DNA of 64,000 nt from Phytohabitans houttuyneae. GTDB lineage: Bacteria > Actinomycetota > Actinomycetes > Mycobacteriales > Micromonosporaceae. The stretch lies in contig NZ_BLPF01000003.1 in assembly GCF_011764425.1 (NCBI RefSeq), positions 310,001 to 374,000 of the forward strand, in the 5' to 3' direction. Below, one piece after another: positions 17,415-33,107 of this stretch. The translations under genes and the position numbers were made by a program. The notes beneath the pieces were generated by a model. The model worked only from the letters and a program-made list of their open reading frames with translations. It did no database searches and was not told the DNA's origin. Position 1 is the stretch's first letter, and each line of letters opens with the position of its first letter.

Positions 17415-18584
17415 CTAGTCGCGGCGGGGGGCGACCGGTGCGGAGAGGCCGGCGCTGAAGAGGCGGGCGTCCACCTCGTTGAGGGAAAGCTTCAGCGCGC
17501 CCAACGCGACCGAGTCCGCGCCCAGCGTGGAGGCGCGGACCTCCGGCATGCGCAGGCACAGGCGTTGCAGCTCGTTGCGCAGCGGGTCGAGCACAAGGTC
17601 GGCCGAGCGGGAGAAGCCGCCGCCGTAGACGACCACCTGGGGGTCGAGGGTGAGTACGAGCGCGGCCGCGCCCACCGCCAGGTCCTTGACGTAGCGGTTG
17701 ACGGCGCCGCGGGCGGCGCGGTCGCCCTCGCGGGCGGCGTTGAAGACCCAGGCGGCGGCGTCGTCGGGGCTGACGGTGGCTGGGACGCCGGGGCAGTTTT
17801 GCAGGTGGGCGGGGGCGTTGAGCCACCGTACGTGCCTGAGCGCGCCGATCTCGCCGGCCGCGCCGCCGAAGCCGCGGCGCAGTACCCCGTCGATGATGAG
17901 ACCGGCGCCGTTACGCATGCCGCCGAGCAGGTAGACGATGTCGTCGGCGTCCCTGGCGGCGCCCTTCCAGCGTTCGGCGAGGGCGGCGAGCTTGCAGTCG
18001 TTCTCCACAAGGACCGGGCAGGCGAACCGGTCGCCCAGGTGCGCGACGAGGTCGACGCTCTTCCAGCCGGGCAGCGGCGTGAAGAAGCGGGTCCGGCCGT
18101 CCTTGTCGACGGCGCCGGTGACCCCGACCGTGACGGCCCAGATGTCGGGCGGCGTCATGCCGGCCTTGGCCACGCAGGCGTCGATGACGTTGTCGAGCTC
18201 GGCGAGGCGCTCGGCGGGCTCGGCTTCGGCGTCGACGGACTGGCGCACGCTCTGCACGATGTTGCCGTCGAGGTCGCAGAGCAGGGCCAGGATCTTGTGT
18301 ACGCCCACGTCGACGCCGAGCACGTGGCCCGCCCCGGCGCGAAACTGGTACCGGCGCGCGGGGCGACCGACCGCGCTGCTCGCGCCGGGTTCCAGGACGG
18401 TGGCCCAGCCGTCGGCGACGAGCCCCTGGGCGATGACGTCGACGGCGGGGCGGGACAGTCCGGTGCGCTGGGACAGCTCGGTGACGGTGGACGGCGGGTG
18501 GTCGCGCAGCGCGCGGACGATGCTCAGGGAGTTGAGCTCGCGCAGGCGCGGCAGGTCCGTCCCGGTTGTTGCCTGTTCGGTCAC
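17415..18584 (-). CDS. ROK-family transcriptional regulator
   Basis: 389 residues. The N-terminal winged helix-turn-helix reads TVTELSQRTGLSRPAVDVIA. The sugar-kinase-like ROK domain follows with the phosphate-binding VLGVDVGVHKILALLCDL and the NDCKLAALAE block. The usual cysteine zinc cluster is reduced to one Cys (QNCPGVP), and the DGxGxG kinase motif is not evident, so it is probably a sugar-sensing regulator and not an active kinase. It is the last gene of the minus-strand carbohydrate block, just behind the alpha-galactosidase. I infer that it controls the sugar importer and possibly the secreted DUF4832 proteins. Confidence 0.85.
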   Translation of the reverse strand: MTEQATTGTDLPRLRELNSLSIVRALRDHPPSTVTELSQRTGLSRPAVDVIAQGLVADGWATVLEPGASSAVGRPARRYQFRAGAGHVLGVDVGVHKILALLCDLDGNIVQSVRQSVDAEAEPAERLAELDNVIDACVAKAGMTPPDIWAVTVGVTGAVDKDGRTRFFTPLPGWKSVDLVAHLGDRFACPVLVENDCKLAALAERWKGAARDADDIVYLLGGMRNGAGLIIDGVLRRGFGGAAGEIGALRHVRWLNAPAHLQNCPGVPATVSPDDAAAWVFNAAREGDRAARGAVNRYVKDLAVGAAALVLTLDPQVVVYGGGFSRSADLVLDPLRNELQRLCLRMPEVRASTLGADSVALGALKLSLNEVDARLFSAGLSAPVAPRRD

Positions 18585-18650: not shown

Positions 18651-20146
18651 TCAGGAGATTGGGTAGGCCTGCGCCGCCGGTGAGATCGCCGCGGTGAAGT
18701 CGGCCTCCCGCCCGTCGACGGTGTACCGGTACCGGCCCAGCCGCCGGATCTCCGGCCGCGCCGACAGGTAGCCGGCCATGTCCTCCAGCTCGGTGGGGGA
18801 CAGCCAGCTCGGCGGGTCGGAGACCGCGCGGAAGCGGCAGATGTCCGCGAGGTCGCGCAGCCAGGCCAGCTGCTGGTCGGTGAGCAGGTTGAGCCGGCTG
18901 CGGAAGTACACGACGTCGGGGTCGACCTCGGCCAGCGGCTGGTGCCACAGGCGGTGCAGCGTGTTGACGACGGCGTTGCGGGCCATGGCGTCGGAGGGGT
19001 CGTCGCTGGCGTAGTTCTGCCACATGGGCGCGACGTCGGGGCCGCTGCGCAGCCCGTCCAGGATGCCCAGCGAGGGCAGCAGGATCGCGCCGCTGCCCAG
19101 CAGGTACACGTCGTCTCCGGCGACCTCGCGGATGAGCGCGAGTGCGTCGCGGTAGCTCTGCTCGCGCTCGCCGCCGCCGGCGCGCACCCCGGGCACCGCG
19201 CCGGCGTTGACGAAGTCGAGCTTCAGGTACCGGAAGCCCCACTCGTGCACGACCCGCTGGGTCAGCTCGGCGAGGAAGTCGCGGGTGGCCGGCAGGGACA
19301 GGTCGAGGGCGTGGTAGCCGCCGCCCCAGTTGTGGCCCGCGACCACCGGCTCGCCGCGGGCGTCCCGCAGCAGCAGCGACGGGTACCGTTGGGCGAGCTG
19401 CGAACCCGGCAGCGCGATGAACGGGGCCAGCCACAGCCCCGGCGTCATGCCCGCGTCGGTAATGCGGTCGGCCAGTGCCCGCATGCCGGACGGGAACTTG
19501 TGGTTGGGCTGCCAGTCGCCGACCAGCCGCTCCCAGCCGTCGTCGACCTGGACGACGTCGAAGGGCAGGCCCCGCAGGTCGTCGACGTCCTTGGCGAGCT
19601 GCTGCTCGGTGATCGTCTCGTAGTACGCGTACCAGGAGCACCAGACGTTGCCGGCGCGGCGGGTGCGGCTGCCCAGCCGGTCGGCCAGCTGCCGGGCGTA
19701 CGCGGCGAACACCTCGTCCTCCGGCCCGTACGCGGCGAACCACGGCTGGGCGCCGTGCTCGTACCAGCCGGCGATGGTGTCGCGGTCGGCGGACAGCCGC
19801 GGCGTGCCGAGGCCGAGCGCGCCGAGCAGCAGCACGTTGCCGTCGCCGGCGTCGATGGCAGCCACGGCGGAGGAGTGGTGGCGGGCCGGGTCGTCCCAGG
19901 TGTCGTCGTCGGCGGTGACGCGGCGCCGCGGGTCGGCGATGCGCAGCGGCGGCTCGGCCAGGCGCCGCCATCCGCAGGGGCTCCACGAGTTCTGCCCGTG
20001 CCGGTAGAACAAGGCGTCGCCCAGTCCGTGCAGTAGGGCGACCCGACCGGGGGTAGGATCAGGCCCCCGTCGGCTGCTTGCGGGCTGCCGGGGCCGTCGT
20101 GTTCGAGGGCGAAGGTGCGCCCGGCGAGCGCGATGAGCAGTGCCAT
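18651..20146 (-). CDS. Alpha-galactosidase (melibiase, GH36-like), one frameshift
   Basis: About 497 residues after repair. The start MALLIALAGRTFALEHDGPG at 20146 has AAGGAGAA upstream. The frame breaks at the G run 20049-20053 and one added base joins it to GRVALLHGLGDALFYRHGQN. The TIM-barrel part shows DVVQVDDGWE, the nucleophile region YLKLDFVNAG and the probable acid/base Asp in GLRSGPDVAPMW, as in GH36/GH27 alpha-galactosidases. There is no signal peptide, so it probably acts in the cytoplasm on imported alpha-galactosides. It lies between the importer operon and the ROK gene. Confidence 0.82.
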
Positions 20147-20168
20147 TGTTCTCCTTGGCGGTTGAGAG

Positions 20169-20199
20169 CCCGTCCCCGGCCGCGAGGGCCGGGGACGGG
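20169..20199 (-). terminator. Strong hairpin after the sugar-binding protein gene
   Basis: A perfect 13-base-pair stem, CCCGTCCCCGGCC / GGCCGGGGACGGG, with a 5-base loop (GCGAG) lies between the solute-binding protein stop (20222) and the alpha-galactosidase start (20146). It can terminate or attenuate transcription, or protect the 3' end of the abundant binding-protein mRNA. Confidence 0.7.
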
Positions 20200-20221: not shown

Positions 20222-21571
20222 CTACTTGAAGAGGGCGTTGACCTGCTCGTTGGCCTTCTTCAGGGCGGTGGCCGAGTCGGTCTGGCCGAGCACCGACGAC
20301 TGGATGGCGTCCTGCACGATCTGGCTGATCTCGGTGCCGTGTTCGGTGATGGGCAGGAAGAAGGTGCCGCCGGGCGCGGTGGCCTCGTCGATGAACGGCT
20401 GCACGTCGCGGCCCTTGCTCTGATGCGCGGCCAGGGCCTTGTCGCTGGCCGCCTTGATGGCGGGGAAGACGACACCGTTGCCGCCGACGATGTTCTGGCA
20501 GTCGGGCGAGGCGAGGAACTTGACCCACTTCCAGGCGGCGTCCTTGTGCTCGGTGCCGGCCCAGATCGCGTCGGAGAGGCCGTTGATCGCGGACTTGCGG
20601 CCCTGCGGCCCGGCCGGCAGCGGTGCGAACGCGAACTTCGCCTTCGCCGAGTCACCGAGGTACGTGTTGATCGTCCACGAGCCGGAGATGGTCATCGCGG
20701 ACTTGCCGGCGTTGAGCAGCGCGTCGATGCCGAGCGTCGACGCCTTGTCCAGCGGCGGGCTGTAGCCCTTGGCAATCAACGACTTGAACCAGTCGATGGT
20801 CTGCGCCAGCCGCGGGTCGTCGTACTTGTACTGCGTGCCCCACGGGTTCTTGTCCAGGTAGGTGAAGCCGAGGGAGGCGGCGAGGTTGCCCCAGCCGTTC
20901 TGGCCCTGCGAGCCGTCCTTCCACTCCGGCTGGTACCCGTAAATCTTGACCTTGGTCTTGTCGAAGGCGGGGTCGAGGCCGTTGCGGCCGTTGGCGTCGA
21001 CCGTGGCCTTGGCGATCACCTGCTGGAAGGTGCCGCCGTCGGTGGGGTTCCAGGTCAGATCCTTCAGCTGGGCCGGGTCGATGCCCTGCGCCTTGAAGTG
21101 GTCGGTGTTGTAGACGATCGCCATGGTGTCCCAGTCCTTCGGCAGGCCGTACCGCTTGCCGTCCTTGGTGAACAGGTCGGCCAGGCCCGCCTGGTACTGG
21201 GACAGGTCGACGCCGTCGGCGTCCACATAGGGCTGGATGTCCAGGATCTGTCCCGAGGTGACGAACTGCGGGTAGTACGAGCCCTGGTTGGTCCACACGT
21301 CCGGCGGCTCGCCGGCGGCGAGCTGGGTGGTGAGGTTCTGCCAGTACTGGTCCCACGCCGACTGCGAGATCTGGACGGTGATGGTGGGGTTGGCGGTGTG
21401 GAACGCGTCCGCGCAGGCCTGGTACGACGCCTTCTGGTTGTCGTCCCACAGCCAGTAGTCGAGGGTCACGTTTCCGCCGGAGTCGCCGCCGCCGGACTCG
21501 GAGCATGCGGCCAGGCCGGCCGTGACGGCCAGCGACAGCAACGCTGCCCCGGCGCGTGATCTGCGAATCAT
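20222..21571 (-). CDS. Sugar ABC transporter substrate-binding lipoprotein
   Basis: 449 residues. A lipoprotein signal ends in the lipobox LAAC (GLAACSESGGG), so the protein is anchored to the outer face of the membrane. The body is of the extracellular solute-binding family 1 (MalE/UgpB-like): VTLDYWLWDDNQKASYQACA, then the typical YGLPKDWDTMAIVYNT and a C-terminal SPDCQNIVGGNGVVFPA. It follows the two permease genes in the same direction. The ATPase is not encoded here, as is usual for actinomycete CUT1 systems that share MsiK. Probable substrate: alpha-galactoside or another oligosaccharide released by the neighbouring secreted proteins (inference). Confidence 0.9.
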   Translation of the reverse strand: MIRRSRAGAALLSLAVTAGLAACSESGGGDSGGNVTLDYWLWDDNQKASYQACADAFHTANPTITVQISQSAWDQYWQNLTTQLAAGEPPDVWTNQGSYYPQFVTSGQILDIQPYVDADGVDLSQYQAGLADLFTKDGKRYGLPKDWDTMAIVYNTDHFKAQGIDPAQLKDLTWNPTDGGTFQQVIAKATVDANGRNGLDPAFDKTKVKIYGYQPEWKDGSQGQNGWGNLAASLGFTYLDKNPWGTQYKYDDPRLAQTIDWFKSLIAKGYSPPLDKASTLGIDALLNAGKSAMTISGSWTINTYLGDSAKAKFAFAPLPAGPQGRKSAINGLSDAIWAGTEHKDAAWKWVKFLASPDCQNIVGGNGVVFPAIKAASDKALAAHQSKGRDVQPFIDEATAPGGTFFLPITEHGTEISQIVQDAIQSSVLGQTDSATALKKANEQVNALFK

Positions 21572-21620: not shown

Positions 21621-22504
21621 TCATTTGCTGCCGGTGAAGTTGAGGGACTGGACCAGCCGCTTGCCCACGAAGATGAGCAGGACCAGGACGGGGATGACGG
21701 ACAGCGTCGAGGCGGCCATCAGGCCGGTCCAGTCCGGTTGGGTGTTGGGTGACTGCTGCCGGAAGACGCCGAGTGCGACGGTGACGAGGCGGTTCTGCTC
21801 GCCGCGGCCGACCAGCAAGGGCCAGAGGAAGTCCTTCCAGGCCCACACGGTGGTGGTGAGCCCGATGGTGATCAGCGGGCCGCGGCTCATCGGCAGCGCG
21901 ATCCGCCAGAAGATCCCCATGCGCCGTTGCCGTCGAGGATCGCCGCCTCCTCGACGTCGCGCGGCAGCGACAGGAAGAACTGGCGCAGGAAGAACACGGC
22001 GAACGGGGTCATCAGGATGGTCGGCGCGACCATGCCGGCCATCGTGTTCATCAGGCCGAGCTCCTTGACCAGGATGAAGTTGGGCAGGAGCGTGAAGATC
22101 GGCGGCACCATGAGCGCGCCGATGACGATCGCGAAGACAAGGTCGCGGCCGGGGAAGCGCAGCCGGGCGAAGGCGTAGCCGGCCATCGCGCAGAACAGCG
22201 TCTGGAACGACGCGATCAGTCCGCAGTAGACGATCGAGTTGAGCAGGTAGCGGGCGAAGTTGATGTGCGCGCCGGAGCCGCCGGCGGCGCGCGCCTCGGC
22301 CTCGGTGGTCAGGCCGAGCACCCGGGCGAAGTTGACGAGCGTCGGGTCGCGCGGCAGCAGGCCGGCGTTGTCGGTGTAGAGGTCGGCGGCGGGGGTGAGC
22401 GCGGTGCGGACCATCCACCAGAACGGGAAGATGGTGACCACGATGACCGCGACGAGGACGGCCCACGCCAGCAGCCGGCCGGGGGTGAGTTTCTTGCGGC
22501 GCAT
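21621..22504 (-). CDS. Sugar ABC transporter permease (MalG-type), one frameshift
   Basis: About 294 residues after repair. It starts MRRKKLTPGRLLAWAVLVAV and has six hydrophobic helices. The EAA loop lies at VEEAAILDGNGAWG, and the frame breaks there at the C run 21915-21918. One added base continues it as IFWRIALPMSRGPLITIG through to the end SLNFTGSK. It pairs with the permease at 22517-23398, 12 bases upstream in transcription, to form the CUT1 channel. Confidence 0.85.
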
Positions 22505-22516
22505 GCGTCAGGCCTC

Positions 22517-23398
22517 CTACGCCAGATCCGACCGGGACGCGCGCAGCAGGCGCATCTGTATCGCGGTGAGTACGCCGAGGATGAGCGCGAGGCAGATGGC
22601 CGCGGCGGAGGCGTAGCCCATGTGGAAGTACGTGAATGCCTGCTGGTAGATGTAGTAGTAGATGACGCGGGTGGCGGAGACCGGTCCGCCGAACGTGGTC
22701 ACCGCGACGGTGTCGAAGATCTGGAACGACCCGATCAGGGAGACCACCAGCACCAGCGCCAGGACCGGGCGCAGCAGGGGCAGTGTGATGCGGCGGAACA
22801 TCCGCCACTCGCCGGCGCCGTCGATGGCGGCGCCTTCGTAGAGGTACTGCGGGATCTGCAGCATCCCGGCGTACAGCAGCAGTGCGGTGTAGCCGGTGTA
22901 CGCCCAGGTGTTGACGGCGGCGATGGACGGCATCGCCCAGGTCGCGTCGACGAAGAAGCCGACCGGGCCCGCGCCGAACGCGTTGAGCAGGTGGTTGACG
23001 AAGCCGAGGTTGGTGTCGAGCAGCCACATCCACAGCAGGCCGACGGTGACGTTGGGGACCAGCCACGGCAGCAGCAGCGTGGCGCGCAGCACGACCGACC
23101 GGGTCAGCCGGTGCATCAGCGCCGCGATGCCGAGGGCCAGCACCGTCTGCGACCCGATGTTGAGCACCACGTACCAGGCCGTGACGAGCAGCGCGTTCCA
23201 GAACTGGCTGTCGTGCGCGAGCTTGACGTAGTTGTCCGCGCCCACGAACGAGGGCGTGTTGAGCATGGTGTAGTCGGTCACCGAGTACCAGATGCCGCGG
23301 GCGGCCGGGTAGCCGTAGAAGATGGCGAACCCGAGCAGCACGGGCAGCAGGAACCACCACGCCGCGCGACGGTCGTCGCGCCGTTTTGTCGACCTCAT
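22517..23398 (-). CDS. Sugar ABC transporter permease (MalF/UgpA-type)
   Basis: 293 residues with six transmembrane helices beginning AAWWFLLPVLLGFAIFYGYP. The EAA-loop region is YEGAAIDGAGEWRMFRRITL, which contacts the ATPase. It is the first gene of the importer operon, and the promoter lies in the 147-base gap to the divergent DUF4832 genes. An 18-base sequence containing its GAGGCGAGG ribosome site is duplicated just upstream. Confidence 0.92.
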   Translation of the reverse strand: MRSTKRRDDRRAAWWFLLPVLLGFAIFYGYPAARGIWYSVTDYTMLNTPSFVGADNYVKLAHDSQFWNALLVTAWYVVLNIGSQTVLALGIAALMHRLTRSVVLRATLLLPWLVPNVTVGLLWMWLLDTNLGFVNHLLNAFGAGPVGFFVDATWAMPSIAAVNTWAYTGYTALLLYAGMLQIPQYLYEGAAIDGAGEWRMFRRITLPLLRPVLALVLVVSLIGSFQIFDTVAVTTFGGPVSATRVIYYYIYQQAFTYFHMGYASAAAICLALILGVLTAIQMRLLRASRSDLA

Positions 23399-23470
23399 CC
23401 TCGCCTCTGGTCCGATCCTCGCCTCTGATCCGGTGTCCGGGTTGGCTCTTGCCAGCCGCCCCGCTCTCGA

Positions 23471-23501
23471 ATAATGATGTAGTCCTTCGAAATTTTGTCA
23501 A
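23471..23501 (-). promoter_or_regulatory. Probable promoter/operator of the sugar importer operon
   Basis: On the minus strand there is a consensus -35 TTGACA (23496-23501), an 18-base spacer containing ATTTCGAAG, and a -10 like TCATTAT (23471-23477). The AT-rich words are shared with the ROK promoter. The site lies between the importer and the first secreted DUF4832 gene (ATG 23546), so a bound regulator could control both directions. Confidence 0.5.
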
Positions 23502-23545
23502 CACCTCTTCGTATTGCTTCGGTAACGCCAGGAGGGTGACCAGTC

Positions 23546-25452
23546 ATGAACTTCCGCGTACTCGGCGCCGCCATCGCCGGCGCCGCCCTGGTGCTCGCCG
23601 GCTCCGTCCCGGCTCAGGCGGCACCGGCCGGCCCGCCACCACGCCCCGCGCCACCGGCCAGCCCCGACCCGGCGCTGCAGGTCCACCCGCTGACCGCGGC
23701 CCCCGGACCGCTGGACAACCCGCTCAAGGGCTGGGCGAGGTTCTACTCACCCGGCGCCAACCAGAACGCCGGCTACCCCCACTCGCTGACCTGGGGCTAC
23801 TTCGGCCTGTCCGAGATCATGACCAGCGCGTCGAACTGCGCCGCGTACAACTGGTCCATCGTGGACAGCATGCTGGCCGAGACCGCCGGCTATGGCAACC
23901 AGGCCGCGATCCGCATCTACATGACCTATCCAGGCGGTACCGGCAGCCACCCCGCCAACGCGATCCCGCCCTGTTTCAACGGCAACGTCGCCAACCGCGC
24001 CGACACCTACTGGAACGTCACCCATCCCGACTACAACAGCCCGTTCCTGCTCAACGCTCTGAGAAGCTTCATCGCGGCGTTCGGCGCCCGCTACGACGGC
24101 GACCCCCGGCTCGGCTTCATCCACATGGGACTTGTCGGGCTGTGGGGCGAGTGGCACACCTGGCCGTACGACAGCGACACCGCCGACGGGCGCCCCAACT
24201 ACATGCCCAGCGACGCCAACGGCGCCCAGCTCGTGGCCGCGTTCGACAGTGCGTTCAACACCACCAAGCTGGAGATCAGGTACCCGGACGTGGCCGGGGG
24301 AGCGGCGAACAGCCGCGAGATCGGCTACCACGACGACTCGTTCTGCTACCGGGAAGGCTCACCGCTGCAGGGCGTCACCCTGCCCGCGTCTCTGGGCGGC
24401 GCCTCCTACGCGCAGCTGCAACGCACCCTCGCCGCCGGCACCGAAAACAAATGGACCACCAGCTCGATGGGGGCGAGGTCCGGCCGGAGATCCAGGCCAC
24501 GGCCTTCCAGCACTGGCCGGGCGGCGCCGGCAACGTCGACAACCTCAAGGCGTGCGTCGAGCTCGAGCACGCCACCTGGATGATCAACGAGCAGAGCGGC
24601 AACTACCCGGCCGGCGACGCGAACGTGGGCGCCGCCGTCCGGCTCATGGGCTACAACCTCACCGTCCACAATGCCTACTTCAGGAACACCGCCAGCGGTA
24701 CCACAAGCGTCGGCGTGCAGATCGGCAACAGCGGCGTGGCCCCGTTCTACTACCCGTGGACGGTCACCCTCGGCCTGAAGAACAGCGCCGGCACCGTCGT
24801 GCGCACCTGGGACACACCCTGGAACCTGCGCACGGTACAGCCGCTGACGATCCGCAACTTCCCCGAGTGGAACGCCGGCGCCGACCCCAGCTACCGCGAC
24901 TTCGGCTACCGGCAGTACTTCCAGCACACCGTCGACCTGTCCGGCGTCGCGCAGGGCGGCTACCAGTGGGTGATGCGGGTCAAGAACCCGCTCGAGGCGG
25001 TGAGCGCCAGCGCCAAGAAGCTGCGCTTCGCCAACGCCACGCAGCAGGCCGACGGCTGGCTCGGCCTCGGCTCCGTCACCGTCGGCACCGGCGGCGGCAC
25101 CCCCGTCACGTACGAGGCCGAGGCGTCCGGCAACACCCGCACCGGCGGCGCGGTCGTGGCCACCTGCGGCGCCTGCTCGGGCGGCGCGAAGGTCGGCTAC
25201 ATCGGCAACGGCGCCACGCTTGTCGTCAACGGTGTCCCCGCCGGCACCCGGAGCGTCACCATCCACTACCTGTCGGCCGTGGCGCGTACCGCGCTCGTGA
25301 ACGGCCAGTCGGTCAGCTTCGCCCCGACCGGCAGCTGGGACACGCTCGGCTCCACCACCGTCACGGTCACCGTCGCTGCCGGCGGCAACACGGTCACCAT
25401 CGCCAACCCCACCGGCTGGGCACCCGACATCGACCGCATCACCGTCACCTGA
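23546..25452 (+). CDS. Secreted DUF4832-type protein with C-terminal CBM35-like domain, one frameshift
   Basis: About 635 residues after repair. Sec signal peptide MNFRVLGAAIAGAALVLAGS...AQA, then a Pro-rich stretch, then the DUF4832-type core with DNPLKGWARFY, LVGLWGEWHTWPYD (Glu202), YHDDSF (His262) and GGEVRPEIQ (Glu311). The G run 24469-24473 lacks one base: the first frame ends KWTTSSMG, and adding a G gives GGEVRPEIQ as in its paralogues. The C-terminal 125 residues (VTYEAEASGNTRTGGAVV onward, ending DIDRITVT) resemble CBM35/CBM6 carbohydrate-binding modules. First of four tandem paralogues, divergent from the sugar importer. Glycosidase activity is my inference. Confidence 0.8.
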
Positions 25453-25472
25453 AGCCCCGAAGGAACCCCACC

Positions 25473-26825
25473 ATGAGAAGATCAGTGCGCCTCGCGGTCG
25501 CCGCGCTGGCGGCCCTCACCCTCGCGTCCGGCACCCCCGCGGTCGCCTCCGGTCCACAGTGGAAGCAGCTGTCCTACGCGCCCGCGCCGGCCGACAACCC
25601 GCTCAAGGGCTTCATGCCGTACGCCGGCAGCTACCAGACCTTCCCGTACAGCATGGAGTGGTTCTACCTGCCGCTTCGCGACGTCATGACCGGGCCGAGG
25701 CAGTTTCGCTGGGACGCCCTCGAACGGCAGCTCAACGACGTGGCCGCCCGCGGCCACCAGGCCGTCTTCCGGTTCTACGTCGACTACCCGGGCAAGCCCA
25801 CCGGCATCCCGCAGTACCTGCTGGACCAGGGCCTGCTCACCCGCCCCTACCCCGACTTCGGCAACAACGGGGTCAGCGTCGCCCCCGACTACAGCGACCC
25901 GCGGCTCGTCTCCGCCCTGGAAACGTTCGTCACCGCCCTCGGCCGCCGGTACGACGGCGACCCGCGCATCGGGTTCATCACCCTGGGCCTGATCGGCTTC
26001 TGGGGTGAGTGGCACACCTGGCCCTACGACGGCTGGACCCAGCCCGAAAACTGGATGCCCAGCACCGAGATACTCACCAGCCTGCTCGGCCGCTACGAGG
26101 CCGCGTTCGACAGGACCCGGCTGCTGGCCCGCTACCCGAGCCCGGAAAACAAGGACCTGGCGATCGGGTACCACGACGACTCGTTCGCGTTCGAGACGCT
26201 GCCACCCACGTCGTGGCACTTCGTGCAGCGCCTCATCGACCAGGGCGTCACCGAGAAGTGGCGCCAGGAGCCGATCGGCGGCGAGCTGCGCCCCGAGATC
26301 CAGTCCTGCCTGTGGGACCAGCCGGTCAGCTGCGGGCAGTACGAGGACTACGCCGAGTCCGTCGCGCAGACCCACGCCTCCTGGCTGATCAGCCACGCGG
26401 CGTTCGCCGGCGAGGGCTTCACCGGCGACAAGTACTTCCGCGCCCTGGCCGCCTCCAAGTCCCTCGGCTACGAGCTGACCGTCACCGAGGCGGCCCTGTC
26501 CCGCGACCGGGTGTCGGTGCGCGTGGCCAACCGCGGCGCCGCGCCGTTCTACTACGACTGGCCCGCCGAGCTGGCCGCCGTCGACAGCCAGGGGCGGATC
26601 GTCCGGCGCTGGCACACCTCCTGGAGCGTGGCCGGCATCCAGCCCGGCCAGGACCCCGCGCAGCTGTCCACCCGCATCGACACCCGCGGCCTGCGCGCAG
26701 GCGACTACGACCTCGTCATGCGGGTGGCGAACCCGCTGCGCGGCGGCATCCCGCTGCGCTTCGCGAACACCGCACAGGACAACCACTCCGGCTGGCTCAA
26801 CCTCGGCACCGTCACCACCCGATGA
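25473..26825 (+). CDS. Secreted DUF4832-type protein, single-domain paralogue
   Basis: 450 residues. Signal peptide RRSVRLAVAALAALTLASG with cleavage near AVAS. The same core as its neighbours follows: ADNPLKGFMPYAGS, FWGEWHTWPYD (Glu179), IGYHDDSFAF (His234) and IGGELRPEIQ (Glu271), ending in a beta-rich part with APFYYDWPAEL and RFANTAQDNHSGWLNLG. It carries no carbohydrate-binding or FN3 module. AAGGAACC precedes the ATG, 20 bases after the previous stop, so it is co-transcribed. It shows which residues are core to the family. Confidence 0.83.
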   Translation: MRRSVRLAVAALAALTLASGTPAVASGPQWKQLSYAPAPADNPLKGFMPYAGSYQTFPYSMEWFYLPLRDVMTGPRQFRWDALERQLNDVAARGHQAVFRFYVDYPGKPTGIPQYLLDQGLLTRPYPDFGNNGVSVAPDYSDPRLVSALETFVTALGRRYDGDPRIGFITLGLIGFWGEWHTWPYDGWTQPENWMPSTEILTSLLGRYEAAFDRTRLLARYPSPENKDLAIGYHDDSFAFETLPPTSWHFVQRLIDQGVTEKWRQEPIGGELRPEIQSCLWDQPVSCGQYEDYAESVAQTHASWLISHAAFAGEGFTGDKYFRALAASKSLGYELTVTEAALSRDRVSVRVANRGAAPFYYDWPAELAAVDSQGRIVRRWHTSWSVAGIQPGQDPAQLSTRIDTRGLRAGDYDLVMRVANPLRGGIPLRFANTAQDNHSGWLNLGTVTTR

Positions 26826-26839
26826 AGGGAGCACGGTTC

Positions 26840-29500
26840 ATGCCATCGGTACGCAAGCTGCTGCTCGCCACCACCGCGGCCGCAACGGCCCTCGTCCTGG
26901 TCTCCACCGGCGCGGCCGCGGCGCCCGCCGGTCCACCCACCCGCCCGCCGGCAGGACCCGGCCCCGACACGAGCCTCGCCACCCACACCTACGCCTACGC
27001 CGAGGCCCCGATCGGCCAGCCGCTGAAGGGCATCGCGCCGTACCTGTTCCCCGGCGACAACCTGTCCACGAAGTTTCCCGGCGGCCTGGTGTGGAGCTAC
27101 TTCGCCCTCAACGAGGTGATGAAGGACCCCAACAGCTGTTCGGTCTTCGACTGGAGCGTCTTCGAGAAGGCGCTGGACGAGGCCGCCGTCTGGGGCCGGC
27201 AGGTCGCGTTCCGCTTCTACGTCGAGTACCCCGGCGGCAGCGGCACCCACCCCGGCAACGGCATCCCGCCCTGCCTGAACGGCAAGATGGCGCTGCGCAC
27301 CAACGGCTTCTGGGGCACGGTCAGCCCCGACTACGACGACCCCGACGTCATCGCCGCGCTCACCAGCTTCATCAACGCCTTCGCCCAGCGCTACGACCAC
27401 GCCGGTCCCGGCGGCACCGCCGACCCGCGTGTCGGGTTCATGTCGCTGGGTCTGGTCGGCCTGTGGGGTGAGTGGCACACCTGGCCGTACGACCGCGACC
27501 CGGCCGACGGCTACCCCAACCTGATGCCCACCGACACCACGATCCGCACGCTCATCGGCGCGTACGACAGCGCGTTCGACAACATCCAGCTCGAGGTCCG
27601 CTACCCGCTCGCCGGCACCGAGAACGCGAACATCGGCTTCCACGACGACTCCTGGCCGTACAAGGAGTTTCGCGGCGGCCAGCTCAAGAGCATGACCCTG
27701 CCGGCCTCGATGAACGGCTGGGACGACGCGTTCCTCCAGCTCCAGCTCAACACCGGCACCGAAAACCGGTGGGTCACCCAGTCGATCGGCGGCGAGGCCC
27801 GCCCGGAGATCCAGGGGAGCCTGTACGCCAACTGGCCCGGCGGCTCCGGGCAGGTCGACGACGTGCTCGCCGCCACCGAGCTCACCCACATCACTTGGAT
27901 GATCAACCAGACCGGGGCCGGTGGGTACAGCACCAGTGACCCGAAGGTGGCCGCGGGCGTCCGCAAGCTGGGCTACAACCTGCACATCCCGCAGGCCAAC
28001 TTCAACGCCACCGCGTCCGGCACCTTCAAGGTCGGCGTCACGATGCAGAACAACGGCGTCGCACCGTTCTACTACCCGTGGACCACCGTGATCGGCCTGC
28101 GCAACTCCGCCGGCACGATCGTCAAGACCTGGGACACGAGCTGGGACCTGCGCCAGGTACAGCCGCTGCGGATCCGGGCCTTCCCCGACTGGGGCGTGGG
28201 CGCCGACCCCACCTACCTGGACTTCGGCCGCCCGGTCAACTTCTCGGCCAACCTCAGCACCGCTGGTGTTCCCGCCGGCTCGTACAGCCTCGTGCTCAAG
28301 GTCCGCAACCCCCTCGAAGCGGTCACCCCGGACGTGCTGCGCGCCCGGCCCGCCGCGAGCCGGCTGACCGACTGGATCATCGACCAGTGGCGCCCGGCGA
28401 TCCCGCTGTCGTTCGCCAACACTAACCAGGGCGCCGACGGCTGGGTCAACCTGGGCTCGCTGACCACCGGCTCCTGCACGGGTGACTGTGTGGCGCCGTC
28501 GGTGCCGTCGGGTCTTGTGGTGTCGGGGGTGACGAACACGAGTGTGTCGTTGTCGTGGTCGGCGTCTTCGGACAACGTTGGTGTGACGGGTTATCAGGTG
28601 TGGCGTGACGGTGTGCTTGCGGGTTCGCCGTCTGGTACGTCGTTCACGGACTCGGGTCGTTCGCCGGGTCAGTCGTATCAGTACGCGGTGCGTGCGGTGG
28701 ATGCCGCGGGTAACGTGTCCGGTTCGTCGGCTGCGGTGTCGGCGACGACGAGTGGTTGTTCCGGGGACTGCACGGCGCCGTCGGCGCCGGTGCTGTCGTC
28801 GCCGGGCAAGACGGACACGTCGGTGTCGTTGTCGTGGACGGCTGCTTCGGACAACGTTGGCGTGACGGGCTATGAGGTGTTCCGCGGGTCGACGTTGGTG
28901 GGCAGTCCGACTGGGACGTCGTTTACCGACATCGGTCTCGGCGCGTCGACCAGTTATGGCTACACGGTGCGGGCGCGTGACGCGGCGGGCAACCGGTCGG
29001 CGGCCAGCAACACCGTCACGGTCACGACCAACGCGGTGACGACCGGACTGGTGCTGGACAACTTCGACGGCACCCCGGCCTATCCGTCGGCTTCACAGAA
29101 TGACCTGGGGAAGTGGACCGGTGGCAACTGCTTCCTGGACGGTGGCGGCTCGGGTGTGGTGAGCGGTGGTGCCCTGAGTTTGCGGTACAACAACTGTGGT
29201 TGGTTCGGCTCTGACGTGGGGGTGGATCTGAGCGGCTACACCTATCTGGTGGTGCGGGTTAAGGGTGCGGCCGGGGGAGAGCAGGCCCACTTCAACCTCG
29301 GGCTGGGTGGGGTGACGAAGGTGTTCGGTGACTTCACTGTGGATGGTGGTGGCCGTCCGGTGATCACCACCGGCTATCAGGACATCCGGATTCCGTTGGT
29401 GGCGAACGGGATCAGTCGCAACTCGCCGTCTCAGCTGGCGATGGGCTTCTGGTACGGCGGCAGCTCCACCATCACCATCGACCAGATCACCTTCCAGTAG
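26840..29500 (+). CDS. Secreted DUF4832-type protein with two FN3 domains and C-terminal beta domain
   Basis: 886 residues. I chose ATG 26840 over ATG 26822 because AAGGGAGC lies about 8 bases before it. Signal peptide to about residue 28, then the core with LGLVGLWGEWHTWPYD (Glu211), GFHDDSW (His268) and IGGEARPEIQ (Glu319). From about residue 549 come two fibronectin type III domains, each closing with SYxYxVRAxDAAGN, joined by short Cys-containing linkers (CSGDCTAPSAP). The last 150 residues (LVLDNFDGTPAYPSASQNDL to TITIDQITFQ) look like a galactose-binding-fold carbohydrate module. Codons in the FN3 region are T/G-ending, unlike the C-ending codons of the core. The 3' kilobase is repeated in the next gene. 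Confidence 0.83.
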   Translation: MPSVRKLLLATTAAATALVLVSTGAAAAPAGPPTRPPAGPGPDTSLATHTYAYAEAPIGQPLKGIAPYLFPGDNLSTKFPGGLVWSYFALNEVMKDPNSCSVFDWSVFEKALDEAAVWGRQVAFRFYVEYPGGSGTHPGNGIPPCLNGKMALRTNGFWGTVSPDYDDPDVIAALTSFINAFAQRYDHAGPGGTADPRVGFMSLGLVGLWGEWHTWPYDRDPADGYPNLMPTDTTIRTLIGAYDSAFDNIQLEVRYPLAGTENANIGFHDDSWPYKEFRGGQLKSMTLPASMNGWDDAFLQLQLNTGTENRWVTQSIGGEARPEIQGSLYANWPGGSGQVDDVLAATELTHITWMINQTGAGGYSTSDPKVAAGVRKLGYNLHIPQANFNATASGTFKVGVTMQNNGVAPFYYPWTTVIGLRNSAGTIVKTWDTSWDLRQVQPLRIRAFPDWGVGADPTYLDFGRPVNFSANLSTAGVPAGSYSLVLKVRNPLEAVTPDVLRARPAASRLTDWIIDQWRPAIPLSFANTNQGADGWVNLGSLTTGSCTGDCVAPSVPSGLVVSGVTNTSVSLSWSASSDNVGVTGYQVWRDGVLAGSPSGTSFTDSGRSPGQSYQYAVRAVDAAGNVSGSSAAVSATTSGCSGDCTAPSAPVLSSPGKTDTSVSLSWTAASDNVGVTGYEVFRGSTLVGSPTGTSFTDIGLGASTSYGYTVRARDAAGNRSAASNTVTVTTNAVTTGLVLDNFDGTPAYPSASQNDLGKWTGGNCFLDGGGSGVVSGGALSLRYNNCGWFGSDVGVDLSGYTYLVVRVKGAAGGEQAHFNLGLGGVTKVFGDFTVDGGGRPVITTGYQDIRIPLVANGISRNSPSQLAMGFWYGGSSTITIDQITFQ
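28496..29500 (+). repeat. 1005-base direct repeat, copy 1 (FN3 pair plus C-terminal domain)
   Basis: Matches 31016-32020 without gaps at a fixed offset of 2520 bases, with about 18 mismatches (about 98 percent identity). The final 300 bases are identical. It encodes two FN3 domains and the C-terminal module of two neighbouring secreted proteins. The edges are sharp: just before base 28496 the two genes differ. Confidence 0.95.
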
Positions 29501-29512
29501 AGGGAAGGGACA

Positions 29513-32020
29513 ATGCTGACACGAACCCTGCGCACGCTCGCCGCGGCCGTCCTGCTCGCCGGCCTGGGAGCGGTGGCGGTCGGTGCCTCGCCCGCGCACG
29601 CCGCCACCGTCACCTACGAGGCCGACCTCGGCACCGCGTTCGCCAACCCGGAACGCGGCTACCACAACAGATACGAGATCATCAACGACCCGGCGGTCAA
29701 CGACTACGTCAACGCCGCCACGATCCCCGGATTCAACCCCGACCTGCTCGACCGGACCTTCGCCCGCGCCAAGGCCAACGGCAACACGCTCATCCACAGC
29801 TACGTGCACCTGGACAAGTACAAGACCCAGCCGCTGCCACAGGCCCTGCTGGACAACCTGGCGTCCGGGCTGGCGGCTGTCCGCGCGGCGGGCATGAAGG
29901 CTGTCCTGCGGCCGGCCTACACCTGGGACGGCTACGTCAACGTCGACGAAGCCCGGATCCTCGGCCACATCACCCAGATCAACGCCGTCATCAGCGCGAA
30001 CGCCGACGTCGTGCTGCACCTGGAGACCGGCTACCTCGGCGCCTGGGGCGAATGGCACACCGGCGGCCTGACCAACCCGTCCTCGGTCGAGGAGGCGCCC
30101 GCCCGCTACCGGATCATGAAGAGGATCGCGGACACCACACCGGCGAGCATCCCGCTCGCGATGCGCTACCCGATCTACATCAAGGAGATGGTCGAGCCCA
30201 CCACCTGCGTCGTCCCCGAAGGCTGCACGCTCACCCAGGCGCAGAAGGACCGGGTCAGCTTCCACAACGACTGCTTCCTCGCCGACTACAACGACATGGG
30301 CACCTACGACAACCCGTCCTGGATGGGCTGGTTCTACGTCGAGCAGAAGAAGCAGTGGATGTACGACCTGGCCACCTCGACCGGGCACAACAAGATGGTC
30401 GGCGGCGAGACGTGCGGCGCCGACGGCTACAACGACGCCGCCTGCGTCAACGCGCAGACCGAGATGCAGAAGCTCAACTTCACCGAGATCAACGAGGACT
30501 ACGCCGCGGTCAACACCGACAAGTGGAAGGCGGCCAACCTCGCCGCCAGCGGCAGCGATCCCGCCGAGACCTGCTTCGTGCGCATCAAGCGCAAGCTCGG
30601 GTACCGGCTACGGCTGCTCGACGCCACCTTCCCGACCACGGTCAGCCCCGGCGGCGGCCTCAGCCTCACCGCACACCTGCACAACGACGGGTGGTCCGGG
30701 CTGATCAAGAACCGACCCGTGTACCTGGTGCTCGAGAACGCCGGCCACCGCTACAACCTGCCGCTGCCCGCGGTCGACCCCCGCGCGTGGCTCGCCGGCC
30801 CGAGCACGATCAGCACGAGCGTCACGCTGCCGGGCGGCGCCGCGGCCGGCACGTACAAGCTGGCGCTCTGGCTGCCCGACCCCAGCACAGGCCTGCAGTC
30901 CCGTCCCGAGTACTCGATCCGGCTCGCCAACACCGGCACCTGGGACGCGGCCAAGGGCTACAACGTGCTGTCCAACGCGGTCACCGTCGGCTCTTGCACC
31001 GGCGACTGTGTCGCCCCGTCGGTGCCGTCGGGTCTTGTGGTGTCGGGGGTGACGAACACGAGTGTGTCGTTGTCGTGGTCGGCGTCTTCGGACAACGTTG
31101 GTGTGACGGGTTATCAGGTGTGGCGTGACGGTGTGCTTGCGGGTTCGCCGTCTGGTACGTCGTTCACGGACTTGGGTCGTTCGCCGGGTCAGTCGTATCA
31201 GTACGCGGTGCGTGCGGTGGATGCCGCGGGTAACGTGTCCGGTTCGTCGGCTGCGGTGTCGGCGACGACGAGTGGTTGTTCCGGGGACTGCACGGCGCCG
31301 TCGGCGCCGGTGCTGTCGTCGTCGGGGAAGACTGATTCGACGGTGTCGTTGTCGTGGACGGCTGCTTCGGACAACGTTGGTGTGACGGGCTATGAGGTGT
31401 TCCGCGGGTCGACGTTGGTGGGCAGTCCGAGTGGGACGTCGTTTACCGACATCGGTCTCAGCGCGTCGACCAGTTATGGCTATACGGTGCGGGCGCGGGA
31501 CGCGGCGGGGAACCGGTCGGCGGCCAGCAACACCGTCACGGTCACGACCAACGCGGTGACGACCGGACTGGTGCTGGACAACTTCGACGGCACCCCGGCG
31601 TATCCGTCGGCTTCACAGAATGACCTGGGGAAGTGGACCGGTGGCAACTGCTTCCTGGACGGTGGCGGCTCGGGTGTGGTGACCGGTGGGGCGTTGAGTT
31701 TGCGGTACAACAACTGTGGTTGGTTCGGCTCTGACGTGGGGGTGGATCTGAGCGGCTACACCTATCTGGTGGTGCGGGTTAAGGGTGCGGCCGGGGGAGA
31801 GCAGGCCCACTTCAACCTCGGGCTGGGTGGGGTGACGAAGGTGTTCGGTGACTTCACTGTGGATGGTGGTGGCCGTCCGGTGATCACCACCGGCTATCAG
31901 GACATCCGGATTCCGTTGGTGGCGAACGGGATCAGTCGCAACTCGCCGTCTCAGCTGGCGATGGGCTTCTGGTACGGCGGCAGCTCCACCATCACCATCG
32001 ACCAGATCACCTTCCAGTAA
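29513..32020 (+). CDS. Secreted DUF4874/DUF4832-type protein with two FN3 domains and C-terminal beta domain
   Basis: 835 residues. Signal peptide MLTRTLRTLAAAVLLAG...AHA. The core is more distant from the other three: it begins TAFANPERGYHNRYEI and has the fuller TIM-barrel-like half seen in DUF4874 proteins (THE Y.HLDKYKTQPLP and MKAVLRPAY stretches). It keeps GAWGEWHTGG (Glu180), SFHNDCF (His251) and MVGGETCGAD (Glu299), while RPEIQ is lost. A beta-sandwich part follows (LSLTAHLHNDGWSGL), then the FN3 pair and C-terminal module nearly identical to the previous protein. It starts 12 bases after the previous stop and is followed by a hairpin. Last of the four-gene array. Confidence 0.83.
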   Translation: MLTRTLRTLAAAVLLAGLGAVAVGASPAHAATVTYEADLGTAFANPERGYHNRYEIINDPAVNDYVNAATIPGFNPDLLDRTFARAKANGNTLIHSYVHLDKYKTQPLPQALLDNLASGLAAVRAAGMKAVLRPAYTWDGYVNVDEARILGHITQINAVISANADVVLHLETGYLGAWGEWHTGGLTNPSSVEEAPARYRIMKRIADTTPASIPLAMRYPIYIKEMVEPTTCVVPEGCTLTQAQKDRVSFHNDCFLADYNDMGTYDNPSWMGWFYVEQKKQWMYDLATSTGHNKMVGGETCGADGYNDAACVNAQTEMQKLNFTEINEDYAAVNTDKWKAANLAASGSDPAETCFVRIKRKLGYRLRLLDATFPTTVSPGGGLSLTAHLHNDGWSGLIKNRPVYLVLENAGHRYNLPLPAVDPRAWLAGPSTISTSVTLPGGAAAGTYKLALWLPDPSTGLQSRPEYSIRLANTGTWDAAKGYNVLSNAVTVGSCTGDCVAPSVPSGLVVSGVTNTSVSLSWSASSDNVGVTGYQVWRDGVLAGSPSGTSFTDLGRSPGQSYQYAVRAVDAAGNVSGSSAAVSATTSGCSGDCTAPSAPVLSSSGKTDSTVSLSWTAASDNVGVTGYEVFRGSTLVGSPSGTSFTDIGLSASTSYGYTVRARDAAGNRSAASNTVTVTTNAVTTGLVLDNFDGTPAYPSASQNDLGKWTGGNCFLDGGGSGVVTGGALSLRYNNCGWFGSDVGVDLSGYTYLVVRVKGAAGGEQAHFNLGLGGVTKVFGDFTVDGGGRPVITTGYQDIRIPLVANGISRNSPSQLAMGFWYGGSSTITIDQITFQ
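31016..32020 (+). repeat. 1005-base direct repeat, copy 2
   Basis: Second copy of the FN3 plus C-terminal module, collinear with 28496-29500. Upstream of 31016 the coding sequence returns to C-ending codons and is unrelated to copy 1. Homologous recombination between the copies would delete 2520 bases and remove the DUF4874-type core. Confidence 0.95.
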
Positions 32021-32029
32021 GGCAGGACA

Positions 32030-32066
32030 CCGCCGCCGGGTGGCGCGAGCCGTCACCCGGCGGCGG
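32030..32066. terminator. Terminator hairpin after the DUF4832 array
   Basis: A perfect 13-base-pair stem CCGCCGCCGGGTG / CACCCGGCGGCGG with an 11-base loop starts 10 bases after the last DUF4832-type stop. It also covers the end of the facing M20 pseudogene, so it probably works in both directions. Confidence 0.65.
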
Positions 32067-32918
32067 AGCTGGCCAGCCAGCCGGCATCGCCCGGACCCCG
32101 TGACCGTCGCCGCTCGTCCGGGTCGAACGTGCCCAGGTGCGGGTAGCCGCTCTCGATCGTGCCGCCCGGCCGGCGGACGCCGAGAAACGAGAACGTGCCC
32201 GGCACCCGGTCGAGGAAGAGTGCGAAGTCCCCACCGTTGAAGGGGATCGCCGCTTGCAGCCTCGCGACCCGGTCGCGGCCGACCGCCCGCCGCAGGTGCC
32301 GCTCCAGCGCCAGGCCCTGCGGCTCCGGGCAGATCATCGCGGGGAAAGGCGCGTTCGGGAACGCGACCGACGCCGCGTCGACGGTTGCCGCGAGGCGGTG
32401 GATGCCGGCGCGGACCTCGCGGTACCGGTCCTCGGGCCAGCACCTCCGCCACCCCGACGCCCACGGTGGTGTGGATGTCGTGGCCGCACAGGTGGGCCGG
32501 CTGGTCGCCGCCACCCTGCTGGGCGTCCGGCGGTACCGCGTCCATATCCGCGCGGTAGGCCACGGTCCGGCGCGGCCGGCGCCGGTCGGTGAGCACCGCC
32601 ACGACGCCGTGCCCGCCGACGCCGGTGGTGACGTCGAGGCCGGCCGCGCGGAGCCGCCGCGCGACGACGCCCGCGGTGCGGCGCTCCTGGCCCGCGGCCT
32701 CCGGATGCGCGTGGATGTCCCGGCGCAGCGCGACGAGCGAGCGCTCCAGCCGGGACGCGACGGCGTCCACCGGCTCCTGGTTGATGGGATGGATCCGCGC
32801 GGCGGCCGTCCAGCGGCGTTCGCCGCCCAGGCCGGTGCCAGCCCGGCCCCGGCCACCCCGGCGGCGGCACCGCCGAGCACCGCGCGCCGGCTGACCGTGC
32901 GATCTTGAACCGCGACAT
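32053..32918 (-). pseudogene. Decayed Tat-exported M20-family amidohydrolase/peptidase
   Basis: The ATG at 32918 has GGGGAAG upstream. The N-terminus becomes a Tat-like signal (TVSRRAVLGGAAAGVAG) only after a one-base shift. A second shift leads to INQEPVDAVASRLERSLVAL and the metal-site block AHLCGHDIHTT. Immediately after GVGVAEVLA the sequence jumps to the C-terminal part (RYREVRAGIHRLAATV ... FNGGDFALFLDRVPGTFSFL). About 160 residues, including the dimerisation domain and the catalytic Glu region, are missing. The large deletion makes this a real pseudogene even if the two single-base shifts are sequencing errors. Confidence 0.75.
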
Positions 32919-33107
32919 GCTTCCCCCGTCGATAGCGCCACTGCGACCGATCGATGAAAGCCTCTCCCATCCGGCCGGCGGCGCGCACTCCTCGCCAGCC
33001 GGCGTCCCGCCGGTAGGGCTGCCCGTACGACCGTCAATCCGTGCGCGCCGCACCTGGCTGTCCGACGGTCTCCCACCAGGCCCGACCGCCACGGTGGCCG
33101 TGCGTCG

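Follow-up and report, generated by a model that had tools for sequence, protein, structure and literature searches.

The 64,000-nucleotide stretch of DNA analyzed here, from the soil-type actinobacterium Phytohabitans houttuyneae (contig NZ_BLPF01000003.1, positions 310,001 to 374,000; hereafter the window) contains, between positions 23546 and 32020, four genes on the plus strand, designated A to D, whose products begin with signal-peptide-like stretches (judged by eye) and are related to the domain-of-unknown-function (DUF) families DUF4874 and DUF4832. An earlier note, made from the sequence alone, had described them as four tandem secreted genes; the tandem arrangement and the signal-peptide-like starts hold, but gene A is not a single open frame. 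The frame that begins at ATG 23546 and encodes the WGEWH and YHDDS motifs stops at 24583, the frame that encodes the GGE motif and the C-terminus ends at 25452, and the switch between them lies near 24470. The 5' piece of gene A (23546..24472) accounts for the signal peptide and for the barrel described below to a point past strand beta6, including the beta4 glutamate (Glu; 24149-24151) and the YHDDS block, and the 3' piece (24469..25452, in the other frame) accounts for GGE (Glu at 24475-24477), the C-terminal part of DUF4832 and a weak CBM35/CBM6-like module. Both pieces are matched best by one open frame in 14 relatives, a count that excludes two partial open reading frames (ORFs, at loci L055 and L063) with which it would be 16. 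Gene B (25473..26825) encodes a single catalytic unit of 450 amino acids with Glu179 (26007-26009), His-Asp-Asp at residues 234-236 and Glu271 (26283-26285). Gene C (26822..29500), the start of which overlaps the stop codon of gene B (ATGA; an alternative start is ATG 26840), encodes 892 amino acids comprising a core with Glu217 (27470-27472) and Glu325 (27794-27796), two FN3 domains and a C-terminal beta module. Gene D (29513..32020) encodes 835 amino acids comprising a canonical DUF4874 plus DUF4832 core with Glu180 (30050-30052) and Glu299 (30407-30409), again followed by two FN3 domains and a C-terminal beta module.

The three motifs pointed out in the earlier note (WGEWH, [YF]H[DN]D[SC] and GGE) are present in the four-gene set, and the spacing between the two Glu is as claimed for B, C and D (92, 108 and 119 residues); the 109 residues of A are obtained only by reading across the break near 24470. 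The assignment to both DUFs is strong for D (DUF4874, PF16173, 9e-30, 103.8 bits; DUF4832, PF16116, 4e-50, 170.9 bits), but A, B and C exceed the Pfam curated cut-offs (29.2 bits for DUF4832, 30.1 bits for DUF4874) for DUF4832 alone, with 32.3 bits for the 3' piece of A, 30.6 for B and 34.5 for C as against 16.8, 16.9 and 20.1 bits, respectively, for DUF4874. Profile-profile comparison relates B and C to D with probabilities of 99.7% and 99.4%. As to the accessory modules, the FN3 domains of C and D are confirmed, but the CBM35 (17.6 bits) and CBM6 (16.3 bits) matches of A fall below the cut-off. C and D share an FN3-FN3-beta cassette (28473..29500 in C, 30993..32020 in D) that is identical at 1004 of 1028 bases (97.7%). 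Their catalytic cores, in contrast, are distant relatives, which points to a recent event confined to the cassette, either gene conversion or duplication.

AlphaFold2 models of mature B (predicted local distance difference test, 94.7; predicted template modelling score, 0.92) and of the D core (85.8 and 0.88) each contain eight barrel strands followed by a C-terminal beta-sandwich, so that the TIM barrel with catalytic-type Glu at beta4 and beta7 that had been proposed is found in the predicted structures. In mature numbering (full-length numbering minus 23 for B and minus 29 for D), the strands assigned in B are residues 23-25, 38-44, 73-79, 143-147, 193-196, 209-215, 245-249 and 281-283; by DSSP, Glu156 lies nine residues past the end of beta4, the HDD block lies in beta6 and Glu248 lies in beta7. 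The equivalents in the D model are Glu151, H222-D224 and Glu270. The Pfam spans of D map onto its model as residues 16-191 (DUF4874) and 218-444 (DUF4832), placing the boundary between beta5 and beta6; because this boundary splits one barrel, DUF4874 and DUF4832 are to be regarded not as two domains but as the two halves of a single catalytic unit.

Conservation of the Glu pair was assessed in 78 loci found with B by six peptide patterns in a collection scan, the ORFs of the window's own genome (L001-L005) being set aside from the B and C counts and A-type rows being left unaligned. Both Glu occur in all aligned B rows but one (81 of 82) and in all C rows but one (36 of 37), and the two exceptions are fragments of 207 amino acids (L072) and 119 amino acids (L055). 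In the D/DUF4832 set the count is 39 of 39; four of these rows, from two genomes of one phylum, have YGE and [ST]GE in place of the usual motifs. One of the 37 C-assigned ORFs is without an alignable region, and the 39 D-type rows, like an alignment of 56 of the 82 B rows, were hand-picked for diversity. Conservation of WGE in the B set is partly ascertained because one of the search patterns holds WGEWHTW; GGE is in none of the six. A motif search without alignment found WGE plus GGE or SGE in all 27 Bacilli DUF4832 proteins. Loss of the two Glu in most family members had been named as a finding that would count against the glycoside hydrolase reading; the pair is retained in these sets except in the two fragments. 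The H-[DN]-D block had also been taken to be conserved, and its beta6 Asp is nearly universal (82/82 B, 36/37 C and 38/39 D-type rows), but its His is not, some Bacilli members having F-N-D.

The secreted genes face a minus-strand gene set consisting of a ROK-family regulator (17415..18584; PF00480, 9.9e-40), a glycoside hydrolase family 36 (GH36, melibiase-type) alpha-galactosidase (18651..20173), and the solute-binding protein (20222..21571; SBP_bac_8, 2.8e-28), permease 2 (21621..22504) and permease 1 (22517..23398; BPD_transp_1, 1.6e-16) of an ATP-binding cassette (ABC) importer. Pfam matches thus bear out the sugar importer, alpha-galactosidase and ROK neighbours already recognized in the earlier note; the genome has four melibiase matches in 11.3 Mb, the window gene included. 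Alignment of the Catellatospora sichuanensis (L014) proteins to the window shows the GH36 gene broken near 20050 and the permease 2 gene near 21915, as gene A is, each of the three having an intact counterpart in L014, and the genes for the ROK protein, solute-binding protein, permease 1, B, C and D each covered by one main frame. One break in each of three genes of the same locus suggests assembly indels or else recent decay. An amidohydrolase-like gene at 32053-33092 also seems, from the ORF list alone, to run across more than one reading frame. The nearest solved structure to the GH36 protein of an intact homologue in Catellatospora paridis (L008) is 6lcj (5.4e-107; 461 residues matched); the KLDF and GPD stretches of the protein align with the corresponding ones in 1zy9.

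An alpha-galactosidase and an ABC importer lie within about 10 kb of B at 50 of the 78 loci (tblastn), importer genes being present at 52. The partner enzyme is of GH36 type at 37 loci (Actinomycetota) and of GH31 type at 13 (Bacillota, Chloroflexota and one metagenome-assembled genome (MAG) labelled Bacteroidetes). The order ROK, GH36, solute-binding protein, permease, permease adjoins members of the A, B, C and D types in many Micromonosporaceae as well as in Streptosporangiaceae and Kribbella, and an equivalent gene set adjoins B in Cellulomonas, Agromyces and Microbacterium. At L045 and L051, where GH31 is contiguous with B and the solute-binding protein on one strand, the nearest solved structure to GH31 is 8j50, entitled 'GH31 alpha-galactosidase' (1.6e-127 and 3.7e-155). 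Judged by these predicted partners, two alpha-galactosidase families, GH36 and GH31, fill the same slot, and the conserved gene context points to alpha-galactosides. The loci resemble other ABC-importer loci with GH31 or GH36 alpha-galactosidases in having an importer, an alpha-galactosidase and a ROK or other regulator, but differ in that the secreted component here is DUF4874/DUF4832. Two Paenibacillus loci have a gene of the beta-N-acetylgalactosaminidase family GH123 near the B homologue (L057, 18342-20129; L062, 18293-20077), that of L057 standing beside a second importer. B-type proteins are also encoded in Euryarchaeota/Thermoplasmata bins (L073-L077), with neither alpha-galactosidase nor importer in the fetched stretch.

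A second genomic setting of DUF4832 is the pel operon. DUF4832 genes of Bacilli (approximately 470 amino acids) adjoin genes for PelF, PelG, PelA-type DUF2194 and CotH (L238, L241-L244) or diverged PelA-type, PelF and PelG genes (L245), and PelF, PelG and a PelA-type gene occur together in 6 of 11 fetched Bacilli regions around other DUF4832 genes, the genes being identified by Pfam in L238 and, in all 11 regions, by tblastn with the L238 proteins as queries. With the same queries and a limit of more than 80 bits, none of the three was detected in the sequence fetched for the 78 B loci, and none of the scanned neighbour genes in the window is a pel gene. A tree of 60 hand-chosen rows, rooted only at its midpoint, with L094 30% filled and several long branches unsure, places its four pel-linked rows on the same side as A, B and C (98/90) and separates them from D and canonical DUF4874 plus DUF4832 rows (99/100). 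A is grouped with C (100/99), and support for the pel-linked rows as a group of their own is weak (71/50).

In pel loci of streptococci and clostridia, DUF4832 is reported to be an accessory gene (PMC7112168). In 2025 the DUF4832 protein SIR_1591 of the Streptococcus intermedius pel operon was described as an active hydrolase able to disrupt Pel aggregates, the purified protein breaking up S. intermedius aggregates as the PelA hydrolase does (PMC12345266). The statement in the earlier note that the family has no assigned activity is therefore outdated. The TIM barrel of SIR_1591 is described as resembling beta-amylases and beta-galactosidases, the S. intermedius polymer as rich in N-acetylgalactosamine (GalNAc) and the deletion mutant as having no phenotype; the accessible text names no catalytic residues, and in its main text the word 'catalytic' does not appear (PMC12345266). 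Pel is described as a polymer of alpha-1,4-linked galactosamine (GalN) and GalNAc (PMC9135694). SIR_1591 resembles the window proteins in DUF4832, predicted extracellular surface location and the combination of TIM barrel and beta-sandwich, but it is a two-domain protein with a transmembrane helix encoded in a polymer-making operon, whereas the window proteins are multi-copy products of an uptake locus with importer and alpha-galactosidase, three of them with FN3 or CBM-like modules. The Pel and galactosaminogalactan hydrolases of GH114, GH135, GH166 and GH191 are likewise TIM barrels and possibly act on the same class of alpha-1,4-galactosamine polymer, but they use an Asp/Glu pair (PMC12054363) where the window family has an invariant Glu/Glu pair.

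Computation thus yields the predicted barrel fold, the invariance of the residues, the association with alpha-galactosidase and importer, and the kinship to pel-operon proteins; from these the proteins of the A-D family are predicted with high confidence to be active glycoside hydrolases. The four proteins, the importer and the alpha-galactosidase probably serve to digest a galactose- or galactosamine-type polymer. The reading favoured, with modest confidence, is that the locus is one of extracellular-polymer utilization, in which the secreted DUF4874/DUF4832 hydrolases would cut a polymer of alpha-linked galactose, GalN or GalNAc; an alpha-galacto configuration of the product is slightly more likely still. 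In the proposed pathway, A-D, each a single (beta/alpha)8 barrel that Pfam splits into two DUFs, with a beta-sandwich, would use barrel clefts and accessory modules to bind the polymer outside the cell and would cleave it with two Glu, one after beta4 and the other in beta7, assisted by the beta6 Asp. The ABC importer would take up the oligosaccharides, and the GH36 enzyme, presumed cytoplasmic, would remove alpha-galactosyl residues, while the ROK protein would sense sugar and control the divergent operons. The leading substrate candidates are a Pel-like biofilm polymer and fungal galactosaminogalactan, which is composed of galactose, GalN and GalNAc; the latter fits at least as well as Pel because the presence of alpha-galactosidase partners suggests that the chain contains galactose. 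An alpha-1,4-galactosaminan-type polymer is only a tentative choice of substrate, somewhat short of an even chance.

The strongest competing explanation, itself rather unlikely, retains the original assignment to clan GH-A: retaining glycosidases, with the beta4 Glu as acid/base and the beta7 Glu as nucleophile, would cleave a beta-linked galactomannan or arabinogalactan backbone from which the alpha-galactosidase strips side groups. Clan GH-A enzymes retain the anomeric configuration, with carboxylates about 5.5 A apart, and have Asn directly before the acid/base Glu as their usual hallmark. The barrel and the Glu on beta4 and beta7 agree with this clan (GH5, GH35, GH42), and since GH5 and GH14 tie as fold matches of D, the clan may still apply; but the best rescored match of B among solved structures is GH14, with lower Z for clan GH-A, the residue before the beta4 Glu is Gly in all rows that have a residue there (81/81 B, 36/36 C and 39/39 D-type), and hhalign comparisons of B and D with GH5 or GH42 are not significant (P 0.016 to 0.1). 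GH14 beta-amylases are inverting, act on alpha-1,4 bonds and have the active-site motif G-x-[SA]-G-E-[LIVM]-R-Y-P-S-Y, of which only G-x-x-G-E is common to the window proteins; these read G-[FLA]-W-G-E-W-H and lack R-[YF]-P-S-Y, whereas three GH14 loci read GELRFPSY. The window proteins also differ from GH14 in their extra beta-sandwich and in that D does not single out GH14; hhalign against GH14, represented by only three sequences, gave no significant similarity (P 0.031 for D, 0.13 for B and 0.59 for C). Inverting chemistry is proposed with reserve, the chances being a little below even. The most extended form of the favoured reading is doubtful: DUF4874/DUF4832 would constitute an unclassified beta-amylase-like family, inverting on alpha-1,4 galactose/galactosamine chains, with one branch in pel operons and a scavenging branch in Actinobacteria, Paenibacillaceae and Chloroflexota that takes up Pel or galactosaminogalactan through the importer and interchangeable GH36 and GH31 enzymes.

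It is improbable that the locus serves uptake of raffinose, stachyose or plant galactomannan side chains with the alpha-galactosidase as the main actor and the secreted proteins as accessories. The partner GH36 does match 1zy9, an alpha-galactosidase of the Thermotoga maritima type with raffinose activity; but small soluble sugars should need no secreted set of module-bearing barrels, B is kept with importer and alpha-galactosidase at 50 of the 78 loci, and the pel-operon relatives have the same two Glu. That the secreted proteins are non-catalytic sugar-binding barrels with the fold retained is very improbable: no enzyme assay exists for these members, their beta-sandwich and FN3/CBM-like modules suggest binding, and the top fold matches include a GH14 entry, 7upv, described as a noncatalytic adaptation, but two acidic residues are kept at beta4 and beta7 across groups and a hydrolytic effect is reported for SIR_1591 (PMC12345266).

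Several observations weigh against the polymer-utilization reading. At 28 of the 78 B loci no alpha-galactosidase was found in the fetched stretch, some contigs being short: these comprise four loci of Dactylosporangium, a member of the window's own family (L016, L017, L019, L029), two short contig ends of Streptosporangiaceae (L026, L028), seven Cohnella/Bacillota loci (L052 and L054, both with an importer only, and L055, L056, L058, L059, L063) and fifteen loci from MAGs of archaeal, marine or other origin (L067-L069, L071, L073-L083). At L065, which has a GH31 plus a melibiase-like protein, the latter has weak PDB matches only (4e-10). The 78 loci, and likewise the 50 positives, are not independent because many come from few related genera or species. 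None of the family members at these loci has a known activity, and the kinship of SIR_1591 to the window proteins rests on the pel-linked Bacilli relatives. Pel itself may not be the substrate because the nearest structures to the GH36 and GH31 partners are named alpha-galactosidases, not alpha-N-acetylgalactosaminidases. Finally, three genes of the locus are frameshifted in the assembly, which may mean that this strain is losing the locus.

The divergent intergenic region contains a conserved element (23469..23514) that reads TTGACAAAATTTCGAAGG on the minus strand. The 9-mer TTGACAAAA is present in 16 of 18 intergenic stretches, the window's included (either strand, unaligned), 4 of the 22 intended stretches having been left out with their flanking genes uncalled. 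The element is likely to be a shared promoter/operator of the importer and secreted operons and is possibly the operator of the ROK protein; its conservation is consistent with joint control of the divergent operons. DUF4832 is patchily distributed: of the 200 genomes in the family sample, 53 have it (G000 included), and the five other genomes of the same genus among those listed for that sample lack it. The window's own genome has a fifth, partial DUF4832 match (profile positions 148-216) on contig 2 at about 2553277 (L002).

The uptake locus, the Glu pair and the half-barrel nature of both DUFs are undescribed in the literature found, which comprised accessible full text with few subscription journals and with CAZy outside the search. 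The literature does include a cellulosomal DUF4874-DUF4832-dockerin protein (PMC7480376) and, in Klebsiella oxytoca, a DUF4832 gene located close to exopolysaccharide genes (PMC6258164). Activity in the wider family is not new because that of SIR_1591 was already reported (PMC12345266); what appear to be new are the scavenging branch, the alpha-galactosidase partners and the residue assignment. If the interpretation is correct, a widespread domain pair labelled 'unknown function' would acquire a testable catalytic pair, one enzyme family would join polymer-making pel operons and scavenging loci, new secreted enzymes would become available for Pel or galactosaminogalactan research, and importer loci whose GH31 and GH36 alpha-galactosidases are orphans would gain a suggested type of substrate.

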